Shown piece by piece: positions 2,355-61,874 of a DNA stretch of 64,000 nt (its first letter is position 1; the number at the start of each line of letters is the position of its first letter). Source of the DNA: Lysinibacillus sp. FSL M8-0337 (lineage in GTDB: Bacteria; Bacillota; Bacilli; Bacillales_A; Planococcaceae). The translations under genes and the position numbers were made by a program. The stretch lies in NCBI RefSeq assembly GCF_038593855.1, contig NZ_CP151996.1, positions 4,216,001 through 4,280,000 of the forward strand. Direction: 5' to 3'. The notes under the pieces were generated by a model. That model did no database searches. It was not told the origin of the DNA and was given only the letters and a program-made list of their open reading frames with translations.

Positions 2355-2670
2355 TAAAAAAACGTCGCTCCCTAGGGAACGACGAAAATAGCATATATAG
2401 TGTTGTCTAACGAAGACAGCTAATGTATTTGCCGTATATCCTCCTAGCTTCCGAAGAGTTTTTATACATTAAATAACGGTCGGTCTCCTGGCTCGTACAG
2501 TTAGCTACCTTCATTTCGTAGCGCTCATAAAGCCTTCCCATCCTGTTGTCTTTGGACAGTGGCATGTATTATGATTTTTGTACTTACAGTTGCGGAAACA
2601 GCTTCGGTCTTACACCGAATTCCCGATTATGCTAAAATTAGCACCATTATTCTGCAAGAATTATTCACTT
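2355..2670 (-). promoter_or_regulatory. Cobalamin (AdoCbl) riboswitch with terminator platform
   Basis: On the minus strand the aptamer carries the B12 landmarks in order: a GGTGC start, CGGTGTAAGACCGAAGC-like stem, GCCACTG, GGGAAGGC and finally GAGCCAGGAGACCGACCG (about 2478-2495). Downstream, CGTCGTTCCCTAGGGAGCGACG followed by seven T (2384-2355) is an intrinsic terminator just before the adenosyltransferase gene. This arrangement is that of a transcriptional OFF switch: cobalamin binding should favour termination. Confidence 0.93.
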
Positions 2671-29092: not shown

Positions 29093-29296
29093 TGTTTTAC
29101 CTACTTTCGATGTATATAAAATCCCCCATATTATCTCATAAAATATACCTTTATTTGTTAAAAATAGCGTGTGAAGATCCGCTGATTCAAAACCTATTAG
29201 TACATTTCATCTTTAAAACAGAAAACAAATAATTTTTAGAATATTGTTGACATACTGAAAATATCCACGTATTATAACTCTCAACAACACATTGTA

Positions 29297-29600
29297 AGCA
29301 AAGATTGGAAGTAGTAGAAATGCTCGTGTACTTGTAGAGAGCCGGTGGTTGGTGAAAATCGGTAGACACACATTTTGAACTCATCCATGAGCTACTCCCT
29401 GAACCTCATCGAATAAGGCATACGATGCTTAGTAAGTTAAATGCCGGTTTCAACGTAAGGGATGTCGGTTTCCACCGTTATTGGGATAGACAGTGATAGC
29501 TGTCGATAAGGGGACTTTTTCTTGAAAGAAAAGGTCAATTAGAGTGGTACCGCGAGCAATAACTCGTCTCTATATTTTGATATAGAGGCGGGTTTTTTTT
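29297..29600 (+). promoter_or_regulatory. T-box leader, leucine specifier (CTC)
   Basis: A T-box riboswitch. The stem I region has AGAGAGCCGGTGG...GGTGAAAATCGG; the specifier segment is GAA-CTC-ATCCATGAGC with CTC (29380-29382) followed by the usual purine. The T-box AGAGTGGTACCGCG is at 29541-29554, and the terminator ACTCGTCTCTATA...TATAGAGGCGGGT plus T run spans 29571-29600. Uncharged tRNA-Leu should switch on leuA. Confidence 0.92.
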
Positions 29601-29638
29601 ATTTTTTTTATTAATTACAACAAAAGGAGTGTTTGAAA

Positions 29639-31210
29639 ATGGGAAGAAAAATTTGGGTGTTTGATACAACTTTACGTGATGGCGAGCAAGTGCCAGGGGC
29701 AAAACTAAACTTATACGAAAAAGTAGAGATTGCACAGCAACTCAAAAAATTAGGCGTCGATATTATCGAAGCTGGTTTCCCTGCTTCATCACAAGGCGAC
29801 TTTGACGCTGTAAAAGCTGTCGCACAAAAGGTCGGCAATACGAATGACATTATGATTACAGCTTTAGCACGAGCAGTACAGGCTGATATTGATTCGGTAT
29901 ACAACGCTGTAAAATATGCTGAAAATCCAATGATTCATATGGTACTTGGCACTTCTGATATCCATGTTGAAAAGAAATTCAGTAAATCGAAAGATCAAAT
30001 ATTACAAATTGGCGTAGATGCTGTGAAATATGCAAAAACACTTTTACCGCAAGTGCAGTATTCAACAGAGGATGCTTCTCGTTCAGATTTTGAATATCTA
30101 TGGAAAACGATTGAGGCAGTGATGAAGGCTGGCGCAACGATGATTAACGTGCCGGACACTGTTGGATTCGCTGAACCTGAGGAATTTGGCGCTATGATTT
30201 ATAAGCTGAATGACCGCATGAAAAATCTAAATGACAGTGTTTTACTAAGTGTACACTGTCACAATGACCTTGGAATGGCAACAGCTAACACACTTGCTGC
30301 GATTAAAAACGGGGCAGACAAAGTCGAATGTACAATCAATGGTATCGGGGAACGTGCCGGAAATGCCGCACTCGAAGAAGTGGTTATGGCATTGAAAACA
30401 CGCAGCTCCATCTACAATGCAAATACACGCATTAACACAAAGGAAATTATGAACACATCACGCCTTGTTTCTAGCTTTATGGGCTTAGATGTACAAGTGA
30501 ACAAAGCCATTACTGGAGACAATGCATTTGCCCACTCTTCAGGTATTCATCAAGATGGTCTGCTTAAATCTCGCGATGCCTATGAAATTGTCCATCCTGA
30601 AGATGTAGGTCTGGATGATATGGAACTTGTTTTAACGGCTCGTTCAGGGCGCCATGCAGTAAAAAATGCACTGGAGAAGTTGGGCTTTTCAAATCTATCG
30701 AATGAAGAATTTGAAGGTATCTTTGACGGCTTCTTAAAATTAGCTGATGCCAAAAAAGAAGTTTACGACCACGACTTATATGTCATTGTAGAAAGTTATT
30801 ATGAAAAGCATGATGCCAATCACGCCAATGCAACTCATTATAGTGAGCAATTTTTTGACATTGTCGATTTACAAGTCGTCAGCAATGCAAGCTTCCCTTC
30901 TGCTAGTGTAAAAATACGCAAAGGTGGCGAAGTATTAAAAGCTAGTGCAGTCGGTTCAGGACCGATTGACGCCTTGTATTCTGCCATTGCAGATATTGTA
31001 CAAATAGATGTAAAACTTGTGGAATATAATATTAACAGCGTATCTCGTGGTAAAGAAGCGCTTGGTAAAGTAAAAATTACAATTGAGCACGAAGGCGCGA
31101 AATATATTGCAAAAGCGGCAGATACAGATATTTTAAAAGCTAGTGCAATGGCTTATATCAATGCTATCAACAGCATTGTTGTAGCGAACTTAACACCCGT
31201 TACAAACTAA
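29639..31210 (+). CDS. leuA: 2-isopropylmalate synthase
   Basis: A 523-aa enzyme of the HMGL/LeuA family: [12 protein letters not shown] with the metal Asp, [18 protein letters not shown] (metal His pair), [13 protein letters not shown], then the C-terminal regulatory domain (about 395-520) that binds leucine. It condenses acetyl-CoA with 2-oxoisovalerate in the first step of leucine synthesis. I use ATG 29639, 9 nt after AAAGGAG, instead of a TTG two codons upstream. It stands alone, without leuB, leuC or leuD, behind its own T-box. The terminal region TPVTN is ordinary. Confidence 0.93.
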
Positions 31211-31380: not shown

Positions 31381-31402
31381 GTGCCAGTCACTCAAACAAT
31401 TT
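31381..31402 (-). repeat. Stop-codon repeat, copy 6
   Basis: Read with metG, AAATTGTTTGAGTGACTGGC plus AC begins right at the metG stop codon. With copy 5 it brackets the convergent gap. Confidence 0.75.
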
Positions 31403-33036
31403 TATTGACTGTCATTAACTAACTTTTGGTATTCTTCTTCAATTAGCCCTACATCAAGCCGTTCAAATAACGGTGTTACTTCGGTAATGCTTTTAGGTAG
31501 CTCTACTTGCTCATGCCACAGCAATTCGGTTATGCCTAACATGTTCCGAATTTTCTCTGTAGAGAACGGTAAAAATGGCTGTAGTACTTGACCTAAATTT
31601 GCAATCATATAAACGCATGTTGCGAGCGTTTGATGGCAATCTTCCAACTTGTCCTTTACTTGTAACCATGGTTGCTGTTCGTCAAAATAGCGGTTGGCTG
31701 CGCGAATATATGCAAAAATCTCCTCTAACGCTTGTTTAAAATGTCCCGCTTCAATCGCCACACCGACATCACTAAACAGTTGAATCGTTTGTTTCCTTAC
31801 AGTCCCATCGACATCCACCTGAGGCACTTGACCATCAAATGACTTCTCGATAAACTTCAACGTGCGATTGACAAAGTTACCGTAAGCTCCTAGCAATTCT
31901 CCATTATGACTATAAATAAATTCTCGCCAAGAAAAATCAGTATCTCGGTTTTCCGGCGCATTCATTGTTAAAAAATATCGTATCGAATCTGCATCATAGC
32001 GACTTAAAATATATGGCACCCACACCGCCCAATTTTGACTCGTTGATAATTTTCGTTTCTCTAATGTTAAATATTCATTTGAGACAATATGTGTTGGCAA
32101 TGCTTTTGCCCCAATACCCATCAAAATCGCTGGCCAAATAACTGTATGGAATGGAATATTATCTTTGCCGTGCACATAGTAAGCAATGGTTTCTTCATTC
32201 CACAAATCTTCAATGGCGATATTATGTTGTTTTGCCCATTCCATACTAGCTGTTAAATAGCCTGCCACCGCTTCAATCCATACATAAATTTTCTTCCCTT
32301 CAAAGCCCGGAACAGGTACGTCAACTCCGTTCGGTAAATCACGGGTAACAGCACGATCTGGTACGCCTTCCGCTAAGTAACGTTCAGTTAAGCCTAGTGC
32401 ATTGTCTCGCCAGCGTTTATCTGCTTTTGCTTCAGCTAAAAACGTTTCAAGTCTTCCTTGAAATTGACTAAAAGTAAAGTAAAAATGTTCTGTTTCTCGG
32501 ATAACAGGCTCATTGCCACAAATTTTGCAACGCTTATCAATTAATTCGAGTGGATCTAAAATTTGTGAACAATTATCACATTGATCTCCACGTGCCTTTG
32601 CCCCACAATTTGGACAAATACCTTCCACAAAGCGATCAGGTAAAAACTGTTTGTCCGTTTCACAATATGCCTGCTCAATCTTCTTTTTGTATAAATAATT
32701 ATTTGCTAGCAGTTGTAAAAAAATAGACTGTACCGAATCATGATGGTGCTTTGCATCCGTTCTTGTATACAAATCATACGTAAATCCTAAGTCATGGAAA
32801 CATTGTGTGAATTCATTATGGTATTGGTTTGCGATTGCTTCTGTCGTCGTATTTTCCTGTGCAGCTCGAATCGAAATTGGCGTACCATTACAATCACTTC
32901 CTGAAACATACAATACTTGCTCACCTTTTTGTCGGTAATATCTAGCCAAAATATCACCTGGTAATAATGCAGCGATATGCCCTAAATGCAATGAACCATT
33001 CGCATACGGCCACGCTCCTCCAATTACAATTGTCAT
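31402..33036 (-). CDS. metG: Methionyl-tRNA synthetase, paralogue lacking the C-terminal tRNA-binding domain
   Basis: A 544-aa class I synthetase. The HIGH-type motif is NGSLHLGH (about 13-20), the KMSKS loop reads KLSTS, and two zinc knuckles stand at about 139-176 (CPNCGAK, CDNC, CKIC). It charges tRNA-Met. The double-knuckle type without a C-terminal EMAP/OB domain differs from the usual Bacillus MetS (about 650 aa with that domain). It resembles the MetRS2 type known in some Firmicutes to tolerate MetRS inhibitors; the resistance is an inference. A Met T-box lies directly upstream. Whether it is the only MetRS in the genome cannot be seen. Confidence 0.93.
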
Positions 33037-33171: not shown

Positions 33172-33445
33172 AAAAAAAACGCCCTAATCATGACTGATTA
33201 GGACGAGTATACCCGTGTTACCACCTATATTTACAAATAGCTCACACTATTTGCCTTAATCAGTACGTCTTGCATTTAAATAAGAGATACTGCCGCTGTT
33301 GTAACGAGTGCCCACCTCGTCGTAATCTACTCGCAAAAAGCTTTCGGTACGAAGCTCAAAGGTCATTTTCAAAAGGGTTCATTTACCTCATTTCCACCAA
33401 CAGAGGCTCTCTATTAAATGCTTGTCCAATTTACTTTTCCTTCTC
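33172..33445 (-). promoter_or_regulatory. T-box leader, methionine specifier (ATG)
   Basis: On the minus strand the specifier segment is GAAA-ATG-ACCTTTGAGC with ATG at 33366-33364, at the same distance to GAGC as CTC in the leuA leader. The T-box AGGTGGTAACACGGG is at 33225-33211, and the terminator CCTAATCAGTCATGATTAGG with eight T at 33202-33172. A TATAAT (33460-33455) stands just upstream. Uncharged tRNA-Met should induce metG. Confidence 0.92.
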
Positions 33446-33550
33446 AACGCTTTTATTATAGTTTGGCACTATTTTACTCTTTCCCCTTATGAAATGCAAC
33501 GTAAACATTCACGAGCTTGCTATAGATGGTTGAAGAACAATAATACATTT

Positions 33551-34204
33551 TTATAAAATCGTCGCAAGTGCAGATGGTATTTCCTGTAGATTATCTATCA
33601 CAATATGCGCCTTTTGTAATTCGGATTCTTGAGCAAAATCAAAGCGTACAGCGATTGAAAATAGCTGATTATCTCGTGCTGCTTGGATATCTGATGAACG
33701 ATCCCCGACAACAGCGCCAGCTTGAATGGAATTTTCTTCGATTACACTTCTTACTAAATCAGATTTATGACCACTTGGAATAGACTGAATACTGTATGTT
33801 CCTTCTATAAAACGGTTCAGCTTATATGTTTCAACGATTGCTTGCAAGTACTCTTTTTGTCCGTTGCTCGCTATGTATAAATGATAGTCGTTTGCTAAAG
33901 TAGCGAGTGTTTGTTCTGCATTTGGATACAATGCGCCTTTGCCGTTTCGTATTAGCTCGATAAGCTTTTCATGAAATAAAACATTACTAGCTTCACGCAC
34001 CTCTAATGTGTGCATAGGGCATAATGTTTCCCATACAACAGGCAATGTAACCCCCATAATTTCACGATATTGAGCAATGGGTGTTTCCCCCTGCCATAAT
34101 CCCTTTGTACGTAGCACATCGAATGTCGCAGAAAGAGCCGGCTCCAAAATAAGATTTGTTTGAAATAATGTGCCATCCATATCAAAAATAATTGCTTTTT
34201 TCAT
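33551..34204 (-). CDS. HAD-family hydrolase (phosphoglycolate phosphatase-like)
   Basis: A 217-aa HAD hydrolase with motif I FDMDGTLFQTN, motif II IASNGQ, Lys in PSGHKSDLV and motif IV VVGDRSSDIQAARDN, plus a helical C1 cap. This is the Gph/PgmB-like subclass; the substrate is probably a small phosphate ester. It lies 15 nt after fosB, most likely in the same transcript as rsgA and fosB. Confidence 0.88.
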   Translation of the reverse strand: MKKAIIFDMDGTLFQTNLILEPALSATFDVLRTKGLWQGETPIAQYREIMGVTLPVVWETLCPMHTLEVREASNVLFHEKLIELIRNGKGALYPNAEQTLATLANDYHLYIASNGQKEYLQAIVETYKLNRFIEGTYSIQSIPSGHKSDLVRSVIEENSIQAGAVVGDRSSDIQAARDNQLFSIAVRFDFAQESELQKAHIVIDNLQEIPSALATIL

Positions 34205-34219
34205 ATTACCACTCCTTTT

Positions 34220-34645
34220 TTAATCATTAAAAAACTCCATATGCGGTTTTTCTTTTTTATAGTAAGCTAAGCGATCCTGCAAAGTACCTGTATGGAATTC
34301 AAATTTATGACCATCAGGATCGGTGAAATAGATAGATTGTTTATCTAGCTCATCTCTTAGCCTACCCTCTAAAATATTGACTTTATAATGTACAAGCTTT
34401 TCATAGATAGTATCGAAATCTTTTGCATCAATAGAGAAAGCAATATGTGTATAGGATTGGTGAATGTCGTTACGTGGAATATCCGCTTCCTCATTTAACG
34501 CAAACCAAAGCCCATTTACATCAAAATAGGCAGTGCTTCTCCCTTTCACTAAAAGCTTGGCATCAAAAACATTTTGGTAAAACGCTATAGATTGCGCTAA
34601 ATTTGAAACAGAAAATAAAAAATGATTAATAGTTTGTATAGTCAT
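34220..34645 (-). CDS. fosB: Metallothiol transferase FosB (fosfomycin resistance)
   Basis: A 141-aa VOC-fold enzyme nearly a textbook Fos[20 protein letters not shown] (metal His8), [24 protein letters not shown] (His), [20 protein letters not shown] (metal Glu; key [12 protein letters not shown]) and the end KPHMEF. FosB opens the fosfomycin epoxide with bacillithiol in a Mn-dependent reaction. ATG 34645 with GGAG 7 nt upstream is the start; the further upstream frame is spurious. It lies 70 nt after rsgA, without a convincing terminator between them, so it may share rsgA's attenuator. Confidence 0.95.
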
Positions 34646-34715: not shown

Positions 34716-35786
34716 CTATTTCTTTCCCTTCTTTAACCCTTTCGCAATTTGCTTCCATTTGCGTTGCTCATTCAGTTTTGCTTGCACATTCGTTTTCCGC
34801 TCTATAAAAGCAAGTTCTTTTTGCAATTTAAAATAGCTTTGTAAGCGTGATGGTTCAAGCGTTCCATCTAAAATGGCTTGCTGTACAGCGCAATGCGGCT
34901 CTTTATGGTGGGTACAATCCCTGTAACGACATGTAGTCGCAAATTCTTCAATATCACGGAAACTAGAAGAGAGACTTTCACTTTGATCCCATAATTGCAA
35001 TTCACGCATCCCTGGCGTATCAATTAAGCAACCGCCACTCGGCAGTACAATTAATTCCCGATGTGTTGTTGTATGGCGACCTTTAGCATCATCTTCTCGT
35101 ATAGCTGAAACTTTCATCAGCTCTTCTCCATTTAAAGCATTCATTAAAGTAGATTTCCCCGCACCCGATGAACCGAGCAGTGCACCCGTCACCCCTTCCG
35201 TAAAGAGCATCTGAATAGCTTCTATCCCTTCACCTGAACGTGCACTAGTTACAAAAATATCTACTCCAAATGCGACATGCTCAACCTCACGTACCATGCT
35301 CGGTATATCCTCACATAAATCGGCCTTTGTTAGGACAACTACCGGCTTAGCCCCTGAATCCCAAGCGGCTACTAAATAGCGCTCTAAACGGCGAATATTA
35401 AAATCGGCATTTAAGCTCATGACAAGAAGAACGATATCAACATTTGACGCGACTATTTGTTCTTTTATTTCTAATCCTGCCACCTTGCGAGAAAAAACGG
35501 ACTTGCGATTAAATAATTTATGAATAATCGCCTTTTCTTCTCCTGCCATCTTCTCCACTAGTACCCAATCCCCAACTGCTGGATAGTCTTCTCTAGCGAG
35601 TGATGTATACGCAAAATGCCCAGCGATGGTCGCTAACCATTCTCCTTCTTCAGCTAATACACGGTATGAATGTTTATGCTCCAAAGCAACCCTTGCAGGT
35701 ACGCAATTTGCTAACTTTGTTTCCTCTTTAAAAGCAGTGAATTGCTCTTGAAAATATGTTGAAAAACCTAAAGTTGTTAAATTCAA
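34716..35786 (-). CDS. rsgA: RsgA-like ribosome-associated GTPase
   Basis: A 356-aa circularly permuted GTPase: an N-terminal OB fold (about 30-105), G4 in [10 protein letters not shown]1 in [15 protein letters not shown]2 KGRHTTTH, G3 DTPGMREL, and a C-terminal zinc finger with [14 protein letters not shown]. RsgA tests maturation of the 30S subunit. At 356 aa with an extra C-terminal basic tail it is longer than the 290-300 aa housekeeping Bacillus RsgA (CpgA), so it is probably a paralogue. The start is TTG (35786) with GGAGG. Upstream is a leader ORF with terminator/antiterminator, suggesting induction by translation stress. Confidence 0.92.
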
Positions 35787-35842: not shown

Positions 35843-36060
35843 AAAAAAACTTTGCAACTGCATTTCGGCAGTTACAAAGTTTCACAGGCACGTTTAAGGG
35901 AATATACAAATATAGCCATTGCCACATAGTAGTATTTCACGCTACAAAGCAAGGTCAAATTGTATATTTTAGGCGTGTGAAATTGAACAAACCGAAATGC
36001 AGTTCGTTAAAAACGGCTCTATTCATCATGTCACATCACCTACTTCCAATTTAGATGTTT
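35843..36060 (-). promoter_or_regulatory. Leader-peptide attenuator upstream of rsgA
   Basis: An intrinsic terminator (35881-35843) has 14-bp arms AACTTTGTAACTGC and GCAGTTGCAAAGTT around CGAAAT, then seven T. The loop and 3' arm, CCGAAATGCAGTT (35868-35856), are perfectly complementary over 13 nt to AACTGCATTTCGG (36004-35992), which lies inside a 24-codon leader ORF (36029-35955). Further CACGC/GCGTG and TTTCACA/TGTGAAA pairings lie between. The two pairings exclude each other, as in ribosome-mediated attenuation. Mechanism inferred. Confidence 0.75.
35955..36029 (-). CDS. Leader peptide of the rsgA attenuator (24 codons)
   Basis: ATG ATG AAT AGA ... ATT TGA encodes a 24-aa peptide starting MMNRAVFN and ending RLKYTI. 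AGGTG stands 7 nt before the ATG. Codons 9-13 (ELHFG) hold the antiterminator half. It has no sign of being a functional protein by itself; ribosome movement over it likely decides termination. Confidence 0.6.
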   Translation of the reverse strand: MMNRAVFNELHFGLFNFTRLKYTI

Positions 36061-36169
36061 CCAATATATCTAATTTTTTCAAAATTGTCAAATCGTTCTA
36101 TCGAAGCATGTATGCCCTTCCTATCTGCATATAATGTACAAGACCCCAATTTACGAAGGAGATGTTGAA

Positions 36170-61392: not shown

Positions 61393-61874
61393 TTTATCCG
61401 TTCCTCTCTATATAGAGGGACAAAAAAATCCCTCCAATTATTTTGGAAGGATTAGTCGCGAAATATCAAACACAAAAAAGCTCAATGTTTGAGCCTTATT
61501 ATGAGATGCTCCAATACTAAAAATGCCACACCAAGCGCAGTCGTACGGTAATTTGCATTTTTAGTATACGTTCAACAATAGCAGACGTTTGAGCCTACAA
61601 TCGTGTACATTATGGAAAATGGGCAGACTAATCCTATTTTTGATTCATTGAAATATACATTTCATGTGCAAAAAATAAGATTAGTTAATCATTAGCCACC
61701 CATCGTCCCTTCATGTTTAGTTACAATTATTGTAACATCAATTACTTAAAAACAGAATACATTCGCTTCGTATTTTCATCTCGCGTCTTTTAGAAATTTG
61801 CTAAGGAACAATGCCCACTTAAATTTCGGCAGTTTTCTACATGCTCCACCCGAATCCCTTACGATTGAAATCCA
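61393..61874 (-). promoter_or_regulatory. Structured leader of vmlR with terminator hairpins
   Basis: From the promoter side: near-complement TAATCTTATTTTTTG/CAAAAATAGGATTA around a 6-codon ORF (ATGAAATGTATATTTCAATGA); a perfect 11-bp stem ACTAAAAATGC/GCATTTTTAGT (61565-61516); terminator 1 GCTCAA-ACA-TTGAGC with six T (61494-61474); terminator 2 CCTTCCAA/TTGGAGGG with seven T (61450-61422); and CTCTATATAGAG by the RBS. Tiny ORFs ATG GGT GGC TAA and ATG ATT AAC TAA lie at about 61704-61680. Antibiotic-induced attenuation is inferred from B. subtilis vmlR. Confidence 0.65.

Follow-up and report, generated by a model that had tools for sequence, protein, structure and literature searches.

Results

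Organization of the rsgA2 leader

Three consecutive genes lie on the minus strand of the window (the whole 64,000-nt stretch of Lysinibacillus DNA that was analyzed): rsgA2 (34716–35786, with a TTG start), which encodes an RsgA-family GTPase of a paralogue clade; fosB (34220–34645), which encodes a member of the metallothiol transferase family; and the gene after fosB (33551–34204), which encodes a HAD-family phosphatase. The fosB product scored 236.7 bits against PRK04101, above the cut-off of 171 and thus a FosB, and fell below the cut-offs of the FosM (254.3 versus 255) and Fos_BSH (222.2 versus 240) models. The gap between rsgA2 and fosB in the window holds a hairpin without a U-run. Directly downstream of the rsgA2-fosB-HAD group is a gene for a 544-residue methionyl-tRNA synthetase (31402–33036, minus strand), preceded by a T-box leader (33196–33456, minus strand; 117.3 bits in Rfam) with a terminator-like hairpin at its end (33205–33180). 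Elsewhere in the window we noted a second T-box (29292–29574, plus strand; 131 bits), whose next ORF (29633–31210) resembles, by eye, a 2-isopropylmalate/citramalate synthase gene, as well as a cobalamin riboswitch (2461–2663, minus strand) and a hit for ncr1575, a Bacillus sRNA family (61422–61724, minus strand).

The leader of rsgA2 extends over ∼215 nt, counted from an inferred transcription start, from a promoter to an intrinsic terminator ahead of the gene; all of its features are on the minus strand. The promoter (TTGACA-17-TATATT, 36063–36091) matches the consensus at 11 of 12 positions, and the same pattern is found upstream in all 30 genus leaders described below. Segment A, the Shine-Dalgarno (SD) segment of the leader (AGGTGATGTGA, 36031–36041; the SD reads AGGTGATG), is invariant in 30 aligned rows and precedes a 24-codon ORF (MMNRAVFNELHFGLFNFTRLKYTI, 35955–36029). 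Within the ORF lie the 5' strand of an extension to hairpin P1 (36014–36024), segment D (AACTGCATTTCGG, 35992–36004, codons 9–13), which would serve as an antiterminator, and segment B (TTTCACACGCCT, 35971–35982, codons 16–20); the partner of the P1 extension (35994–35985) overlaps the 3' end of D. A further predicted hairpin of variable length, P2 (35901–35968), with ends that are alike and a middle that varies among the aligned leaders, separates B from segment C (GCCTGTGAAA, 35880–35889) and is a possible pause hairpin. The terminator hairpin occupies 35848–35881, with stem strands 35881–35868 and 35861–35848 (16 pairs including flanking ones) and a U-run at 35849–35843, and its loop and inner 3' arm constitute segment E (CCGAAATGCAGTT, 35856–35868), the complement of D. 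A scan of 4.5 kb gave eight terminator-like sites against 3.3 expected. The Rfam search of the leader returned no family at the gathering score, T-box included, and the matches below that score were two to miRNAs, far under their cut-offs.

A first-pass annotation of this DNA had proposed a leader-peptide attenuator made up of the 24-codon ORF with its ribosome-binding site, a strong terminator (35881–35843) ahead of rsgA, and a stretch of the ORF complementary to the terminator loop and 3' arm over 13 nt. Each of these parts is present, but the element was drawn too short, since it starts at the promoter (36091), and the SD-masking A:B pairing and the B:C pairing had been missed.

Alternative pairings and their conservation

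The complementarity of D (36004–35992) to E (35868–35856) is perfect over 13 nt, or 14 with one flanking pair, and the run exceeds chance in comparison with shuffled leaders (z = 6.2, p = 0.003); the fold of the whole window leader has a z score of −4.9. In the predicted fold, A pairs with B in hairpin P1, which thereby masks the leader SD and also sequesters the 3' end of D. B has an alternative partner in C, immediately before the terminator, with a single C-C mismatch in the window. Two mutually exclusive structures result, one combining A:B with the terminator (OFF) and the other combining B:C with D:E (ON), in which D:E encloses B:C.

We read this leader in 30 Lysinibacillus genomes, comprising that of the window and 29 of the 31 other genomes of the genus; the remaining two lack rsgA2. 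The start codon, SD, and open frame of the leader ORF were found in all 30, with a length of 24 codons in 28 leaders and 28 codons in two. The first-pass annotation had suggested searching the genus for the two complementary segments, and they proved to be conserved: D and E can form at least 8 uninterrupted pairs in 30/30 leaders and at least 11 in 26/30.

Pairing statistics were computed from 30 distinct rows (28 from the genus and two of Metasolibacillus type). A:B is paired in 100% of cells but is nearly invariant within the genus and is therefore uninformative by covariation. The P1 extension is paired in 98% of cells, with two-sided changes at two pairs, and the terminator stem in 86.7%, with two-sided changes at four. 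For D:E, 87.9% of cells are paired and two-sided changes affect two pairs in five cells, a cell count reached by 1 of 500 shuffles and a pair count reached by 153 of 500; the window itself carries one of these changes, an A-U pair turned U-A, and the two outermost positions of D:E do not pair in 11 and 22 rows of the 30. B:C is paired in 91% of cells, with one position mismatched in 24 of 30 rows and no two-sided change among the 30. Taken as wholes, the OFF structure has six pairs with two-sided changes, a number reached by none of 500 shuffles (five pairs remain when the structure is slid by +1), and the ON structure has the two pairs just mentioned, with a covariation score that none of 500 shuffles reached. 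The mutually exclusive pairings put forward in the earlier reading are thus both conserved, with some covariation.

Linkage of the leader to rsgA2 and fosB

P1 could be represented by a covariance model of 80 positions, built without indels from 23 sequences. The model matches 30 of 32 genus genomes, exactly once each, and the two without a match (G008 and G030) are the two that lack rsgA2. Under stricter filters, a sample of the family gave matches in 18 of 121 genomes, 10 of them Lysinibacillus, and in 4 of 19 genera. At every matched locus that was fetched (25/25), rsgA2 adjoins P1. The SD-start pattern occurs in the genome of the window once without mismatch and four times with two to three mismatches.

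The gene following rsgA2 on the same strand is fosB at 29 of 30 Lysinibacillus loci, with a spacing of 14–404 nt; at 117 other loci, within the sequence stretches examined, fosB was never found directly behind rsgA2.

RsgA2 is a second member of the RsgA family

The rsgA2 product scored 180.1 bits against TIGR00157 (cut-off 100), which places it in the RsgA family, and fell under the cut-offs of two other RsgA equivalog models, PRK12288 and PRK12289. It is 30–36% identical to the canonical RsgA (YloQ/CpgA) copies of 20 genomes. In a tree of 139 rows remaining after length filters, 19 canonical rows split from the 120 others with a branch support of 100 by a quick method. Judged by identity and tree position, the window gene is a second RsgA outside the canonical clade; the earlier designation as rsgA is corrected accordingly. 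Rows of the RsgA2 clade, drawn in part from the best 80 of 584 relatives, carry the names of Bacillota, Cyanobacteriota, Actinomycetota, Pseudomonadota, Acidobacteriota, Verrucomicrobiota, and others, and include several metagenome bins.

In a plasmid collection, 184 records match RsgA2 at the protein level, at least one of them being chromosome-sized. A Lysinibacillus fusiformis plasmid encodes a protein 82.5% identical to that of the window, and two records named as Stenotrophomonas rhizophila plasmids encode one that is 82.7% identical, which points to mislabeling or transfer. Some Lysinibacillus and one relative carry a further RsgA-like paralogue (L101, L102, L103, L104, and L107) that is ∼40–42% identical and forms its own clade. 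It is preceded by a short SD-ORF (e.g. MTTYMVLVVLT or MATTNMVIWS) and terminator-like hairpins, and the two leaders of this group that were folded (L101 and L103) gave no switch in the ribosome-footprint folding described below.

Leaders across the RsgA2 clade

Upstream regions of 150 clade members were collected, of which 147 remained when those shorter than 200 nt or containing N were dropped, and 113 when near-duplicates were removed. A usable SD-ORF was present in 93 of the 113, and the 20 without one were set aside. Leader ORFs with an SD score of −10 or better were found in 77/113 clade regions, compared with 40/339 shuffles and 51/396 control genes (other genes from 70 of the loci). Among regions from outside the Bacillota (Cyanobacteriota to Pseudomonadota), 14 of 22 had a strong SD-ORF and 2 of 22 a called terminator. 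A canonical rsgA gene had an SD-ORF upstream at 1 of 20 loci, but this is a weak control because most of these loci have a reading frame close upstream. Replacing the automatic leader pick by a fixed SD pattern changed three picks (L089, L125, and L131), none of them among the 48 terminator-bearing leaders considered next.

The leader SD tends to have a complement in the downstream sequence: 33 of 93 leaders fell in the best 5% of their shuffles (mean z −1.26), whereas the SD of rsgA2 itself did so in 3 of 92 (mean z +0.25), and the difference is highly significant (p = 1.4e-13). Of the 93 usable leaders, 48 have a terminator located between ORF and gene, so that an SD-ORF combined with a terminator occurs in 48/113 clade regions versus 9/396 control genes; the terminator finder sometimes picked a second hairpin nearer the gene (e.g. 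in L127, L134, and L149). Complementarity of the leader to the terminator, scored as an ungapped run over the hairpin, reached p ≤ 0.05 in 27 and p ≤ 0.01 in 21 of the 48. This test was devised after one based on duplex energy, which compared the leader with the loop and 3' arm, had come out not significant (6/48 at the 5% level, mean z −0.46); by our reading, the duplex-energy test is dominated by trailing A/U pairs, and in many Bacillaceae the E segment falls within the 5' arm plus the loop. The complementary segments differ in sequence between genera, as in the pairs CACGAAUCUG/CAGAUUCGUG and CACAGCCC/GGGCUGUG.

In the other 45 of the 93 leaders no terminator was found, and occupancy of the leader changed the accessibility of the rsgA2 SD from 0.33 to 0.39 (44 computed). 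Anti-SD segments are visible by eye in such leaders, but a translational variant is not established by these data because the accessibility barely shifts.

Several individual leaders have additional features. In L034/L073 and L035/L074, most of the 380 nt upstream of rsgA2 consist of repetitive, partly palindromic units; L034 also has a terminator, similar in its loop (CCGATTTGCAGC), ahead of these repeats, as though they had entered between the leader and rsgA2. Just upstream of the Listeria monocytogenes homologue lies a short SD-ORF (MAIVKMENLIINTGVFYL; L191:2900-3013), with no terminator found in between. By eye, the Bacillaceae leaders L120, L121, L126, and L127 have a first hairpin beginning CCATGGGCTGTG or similar and then GACCG...CGGTC with a T-run, and several Bacillaceae leaders may thus carry two terminators in series.

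Predicted dependence on ribosome position

The effect of a ribosome on the leader was modeled at equilibrium with a footprint, reaching from 17 nt before to 15 nt beyond the P-site codon, that was excluded from base pairing. For the window, the terminator is predicted to form when no ribosome is present; its probability falls to 0.20 when the ribosome sits at codon 1 and to 0.27 when it sits at codon 3, and recovers to 0.87 at codon 5 and fully at codon 8. The D:E probability runs the opposite way (0.78, 0.72, and 0.10 with the ribosome at codons 1, 3, and 5, respectively), and B:C has a probability of 0.86 with the ribosome at codon 1. The earlier proposal that ribosome stalling on the leader sets read-through is consequently retained for a hold at about codons 1–4 in the window, but a stall at codon 8 or later is predicted to give termination.

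Across the 48 terminator-bearing clade leaders, the terminator probability averaged 0.90 without a ribosome, 0.53 with one at codon 1, and 0.88 with one at codon 7, and the mean drop was 0.39 compared with 0.012 in shuffled leaders. The drop was above the maximum of 15 shuffles in 29 of the 48 leaders. With the ribosome placed at codon 1 or 4, it exceeded 0.3 in 24 of them (7 from Lysinibacillus and 17 others), and the other 24 gave no switch by footprint folding. In the 24 switching leaders, which were selected by this drop, the corresponding means were 0.92, 0.21, and 0.88. Control regions with an SD-ORF and a terminator, passed through the same pipeline (396 genes, 70 loci), gave a drop of >0.3 in 0 of 9. 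Within the genus, the effect in eight leaders that were folded ranged from complete (L031 and L005) to nearly absent in the full-length leader (L021 and L026), and the full-length drop was small or lacking in 3 of 10 Lysinibacillus leaders of the non-redundant set (L011, L021, and L026). For L026, the prediction is that B:C outweighs A:B even without a ribosome. When the hairpins were incomplete, a ribosome at codon 1 led to pairing of the leader with the hairpin in 8 of 8 leaders examined. Such pairing is also transiently favored without a ribosome at intermediate transcript lengths in several leaders, including that of the window, where the terminator prevails only once it is nearly complete; the OFF state would therefore require fast strand exchange or a pre-formed P1.

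A constitutive terminator with a chance ORF, rsgA2 being expressed by leak or from another promoter, is a very improbable account of these leaders. Terminators ahead of genes are common and half of the clade terminator leaders do not switch in folding, as this explanation would have it, but it leaves unexplained the excess of SD-ORFs over shuffles and control genes, their combination with terminators, and the co-occurrence of P1 with rsgA2. We also give little credence to an RNA that binds a ligand or protein (a riboswitch, autoregulation by RsgA2 or a 30S protein, or a thermometer) and contains the ORF incidentally. Conservation at the level of the RNA, with 80 nt of P1 free of indels in 23 sequences and no coding selection, fits such an element. 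What recurs across the clade, however, is an SD, a start codon, and a strand complementary to the SD, half of the terminators are predicted to respond to ribosome occupancy by itself, and the leader has no Rfam family at the gathering score.

The leader peptide could instead act by specific arrest, a drug (such as a macrolide with an RLR motif) or codon starvation stalling the ribosome at a fixed internal codon. A leader ORF with a strong SD ahead of a ribosome-related gene recalls rli80-hflXr, which is reported to have an RLR motif (PMC6310831), but no RLR motif occurs in any of the 30 genus leader peptides. In a comparison of 23 different ORF bodies, the variable columns number 9/10/9 at the three codon positions, and the codon variants comprise 7 synonymous and 29 nonsynonymous changes compared with 43 and 173 possible single changes. 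In addition, leader peptides differ between genera, and the predicted outcome of a ribosome at codon 8 or beyond in the window is termination. We regard this mechanism as improbable, and codon- or peptide-specific stalling was set aside as no peptide-level selection was found in the 23 ORF bodies. Starvation acting at particular codons, which the first-pass annotation had offered as a possible signal, is likewise unlikely because the leader codons show no selection. By its pattern of codon variation, the leader is more likely an early-stall sensor than an arrest peptide.

Discussion

The exclusive pairings conserved in the genus, the tie of P1 to rsgA2, and the predicted dependence on ribosome position bear out the idea of a leader-ORF attenuator. 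The element is likely to attenuate transcription in a ribosome-dependent manner, responding to ribosomes detained at initiation or on the first few codons, and the footprint folding supports a sensor of this kind, for ribosomes halted where the ORF begins. By default, the nascent leader would fold P1 (A:B plus the extension), making the SD of the leader inaccessible together with the 3' end of D; a terminator hairpin would then form and transcription would end ahead of rsgA2. The trigger would be a ribosome that binds at the SD but does not move beyond about codons 1–4, possibly because of an initiation-stage inhibitor, a failed first peptide bond, or a defective initiation complex. Such a ribosome would cover A, leaving B free for C and D free for E, and the terminator would be blocked. 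Transcription would then continue into rsgA2 and, in Lysinibacillus, probably into fosB too, and possibly into the HAD gene. A normally elongating ribosome would cover D and B and leave, after which P1 would re-form and termination would follow.

This anatomy, compared by its parts, resembles that of Bacillus subtilis vmlR. There, initiating ribosomes are reported to be stalled by lincomycin and retapamulin on a uORF located in an anti-antiterminator hairpin, and assembly defects to induce as well (PMC9226507). Common to both are the uORF in the anti-antiterminator hairpin, a middle (pause) hairpin, an intrinsic terminator, and an alternative antiterminator; uORF stalling leads to read-through in vmlR and is predicted to do so here, and both products are linked to the ribosome, RsgA2 by inference. 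The vmlR uORF has three codons and precedes a gene for an ABCF ATPase, whereas the ORF described here has 24 codons and precedes that for an RsgA-family GTPase. The antiterminator in the present case is composed of separate B:C and D:E helices, and induction was measured for vmlR but is a prediction for rsgA2. In Listeria rli80-hflXr, a gene for a ribosome-associated GTPase homologue likewise lies behind a leader-ORF transcription attenuator; there the protein is an HflX, the leader has an RLR motif, and induction and resistance are reported (PMC6310831), in contrast to an RsgA, no RLR, and predicted control here.

In Streptomyces coelicolor, one copy of the RsgA/EngC pair SCO6149 and SCO5211, by word order SCO6149, is reported to follow WblC and tetracycline (PMC7157823). 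This system resembles ours, at the level of the protein family, in that a second RsgA is tied to the response to translation inhibitors, and it differs in being controlled by the transcription factor WblC instead of a leader attenuator. Canonical RsgA shares the TIGR00157 family with RsgA2 but falls in a separate clade (support 100 in the quick tree) and lacks an SD-ORF leader at 19 of 20 loci. Among the matches listed in the literature searched, which lies mostly outside subscription journals, no attenuator of RsgA or fosB was described, nor did this literature yield a report combining RsgA, attenuation, and a leader peptide. The logic of the switch is thus known, and what appears new is the gene family, the unusually wide spread, and the separate B:C and D:E helices.

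As to the product, we infer that RsgA2 acts on 30S subunits or initiation complexes when translation is inhibited. The same switch could also serve another purpose, RsgA2 either shutting ribosomes down under stress or phage attack or protecting metabolism in the manner of CpgA; this alternative is compatible with the attenuator because it concerns the product and not the switch. E. coli RsgA is reported to inhibit T4 by inactivating ribosomes (PMC10475562), B. subtilis lacking CpgA is reported to be sensitive to fosfomycin, an effect attributed to dysregulation of central metabolism (PMC12445079), and fosB is the next gene after rsgA2 here. The signal inferred for the leader is nonetheless blocked translation initiation, a Streptomyces paralogue is reported to belong to a drug-response regulon (PMC7157823), and fosB lies directly behind rsgA2 only in Lysinibacillus within the stretches examined. 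We therefore consider such other purposes rather unlikely, though well short of negligible.

The similarly built leaders before many relatives suggest that RsgA2, so far a little-studied protein, is produced when translation is blocked. A broader proposal, put forward tentatively and with somewhat less than even confidence, is that the RsgA2 clade comprises a previously unrecognized class of widespread inducible GTPases that protect or rescue the small subunit or initiation complexes, forming the RsgA counterpart of HflXr. Their genes would be governed by start-codon-stall leaders that act by attenuation in many Bacillota and as translational variants elsewhere, and Lysinibacillus would have placed fosfomycin resistance under translation-stress control. 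A second RsgA present in many phyla and annotated like an assembly factor would thereby gain a concrete role in the response to blocked translation. The leader would represent a compact sensor of start-codon stalls; its logic is legible in the sequence and may be used to find other such genes. Finally, the position of fosB suggests that resistance to a cell wall drug is under translation-stress control in one genus; if so, exposure to ribosome-targeting drugs could alter fosfomycin tolerance.
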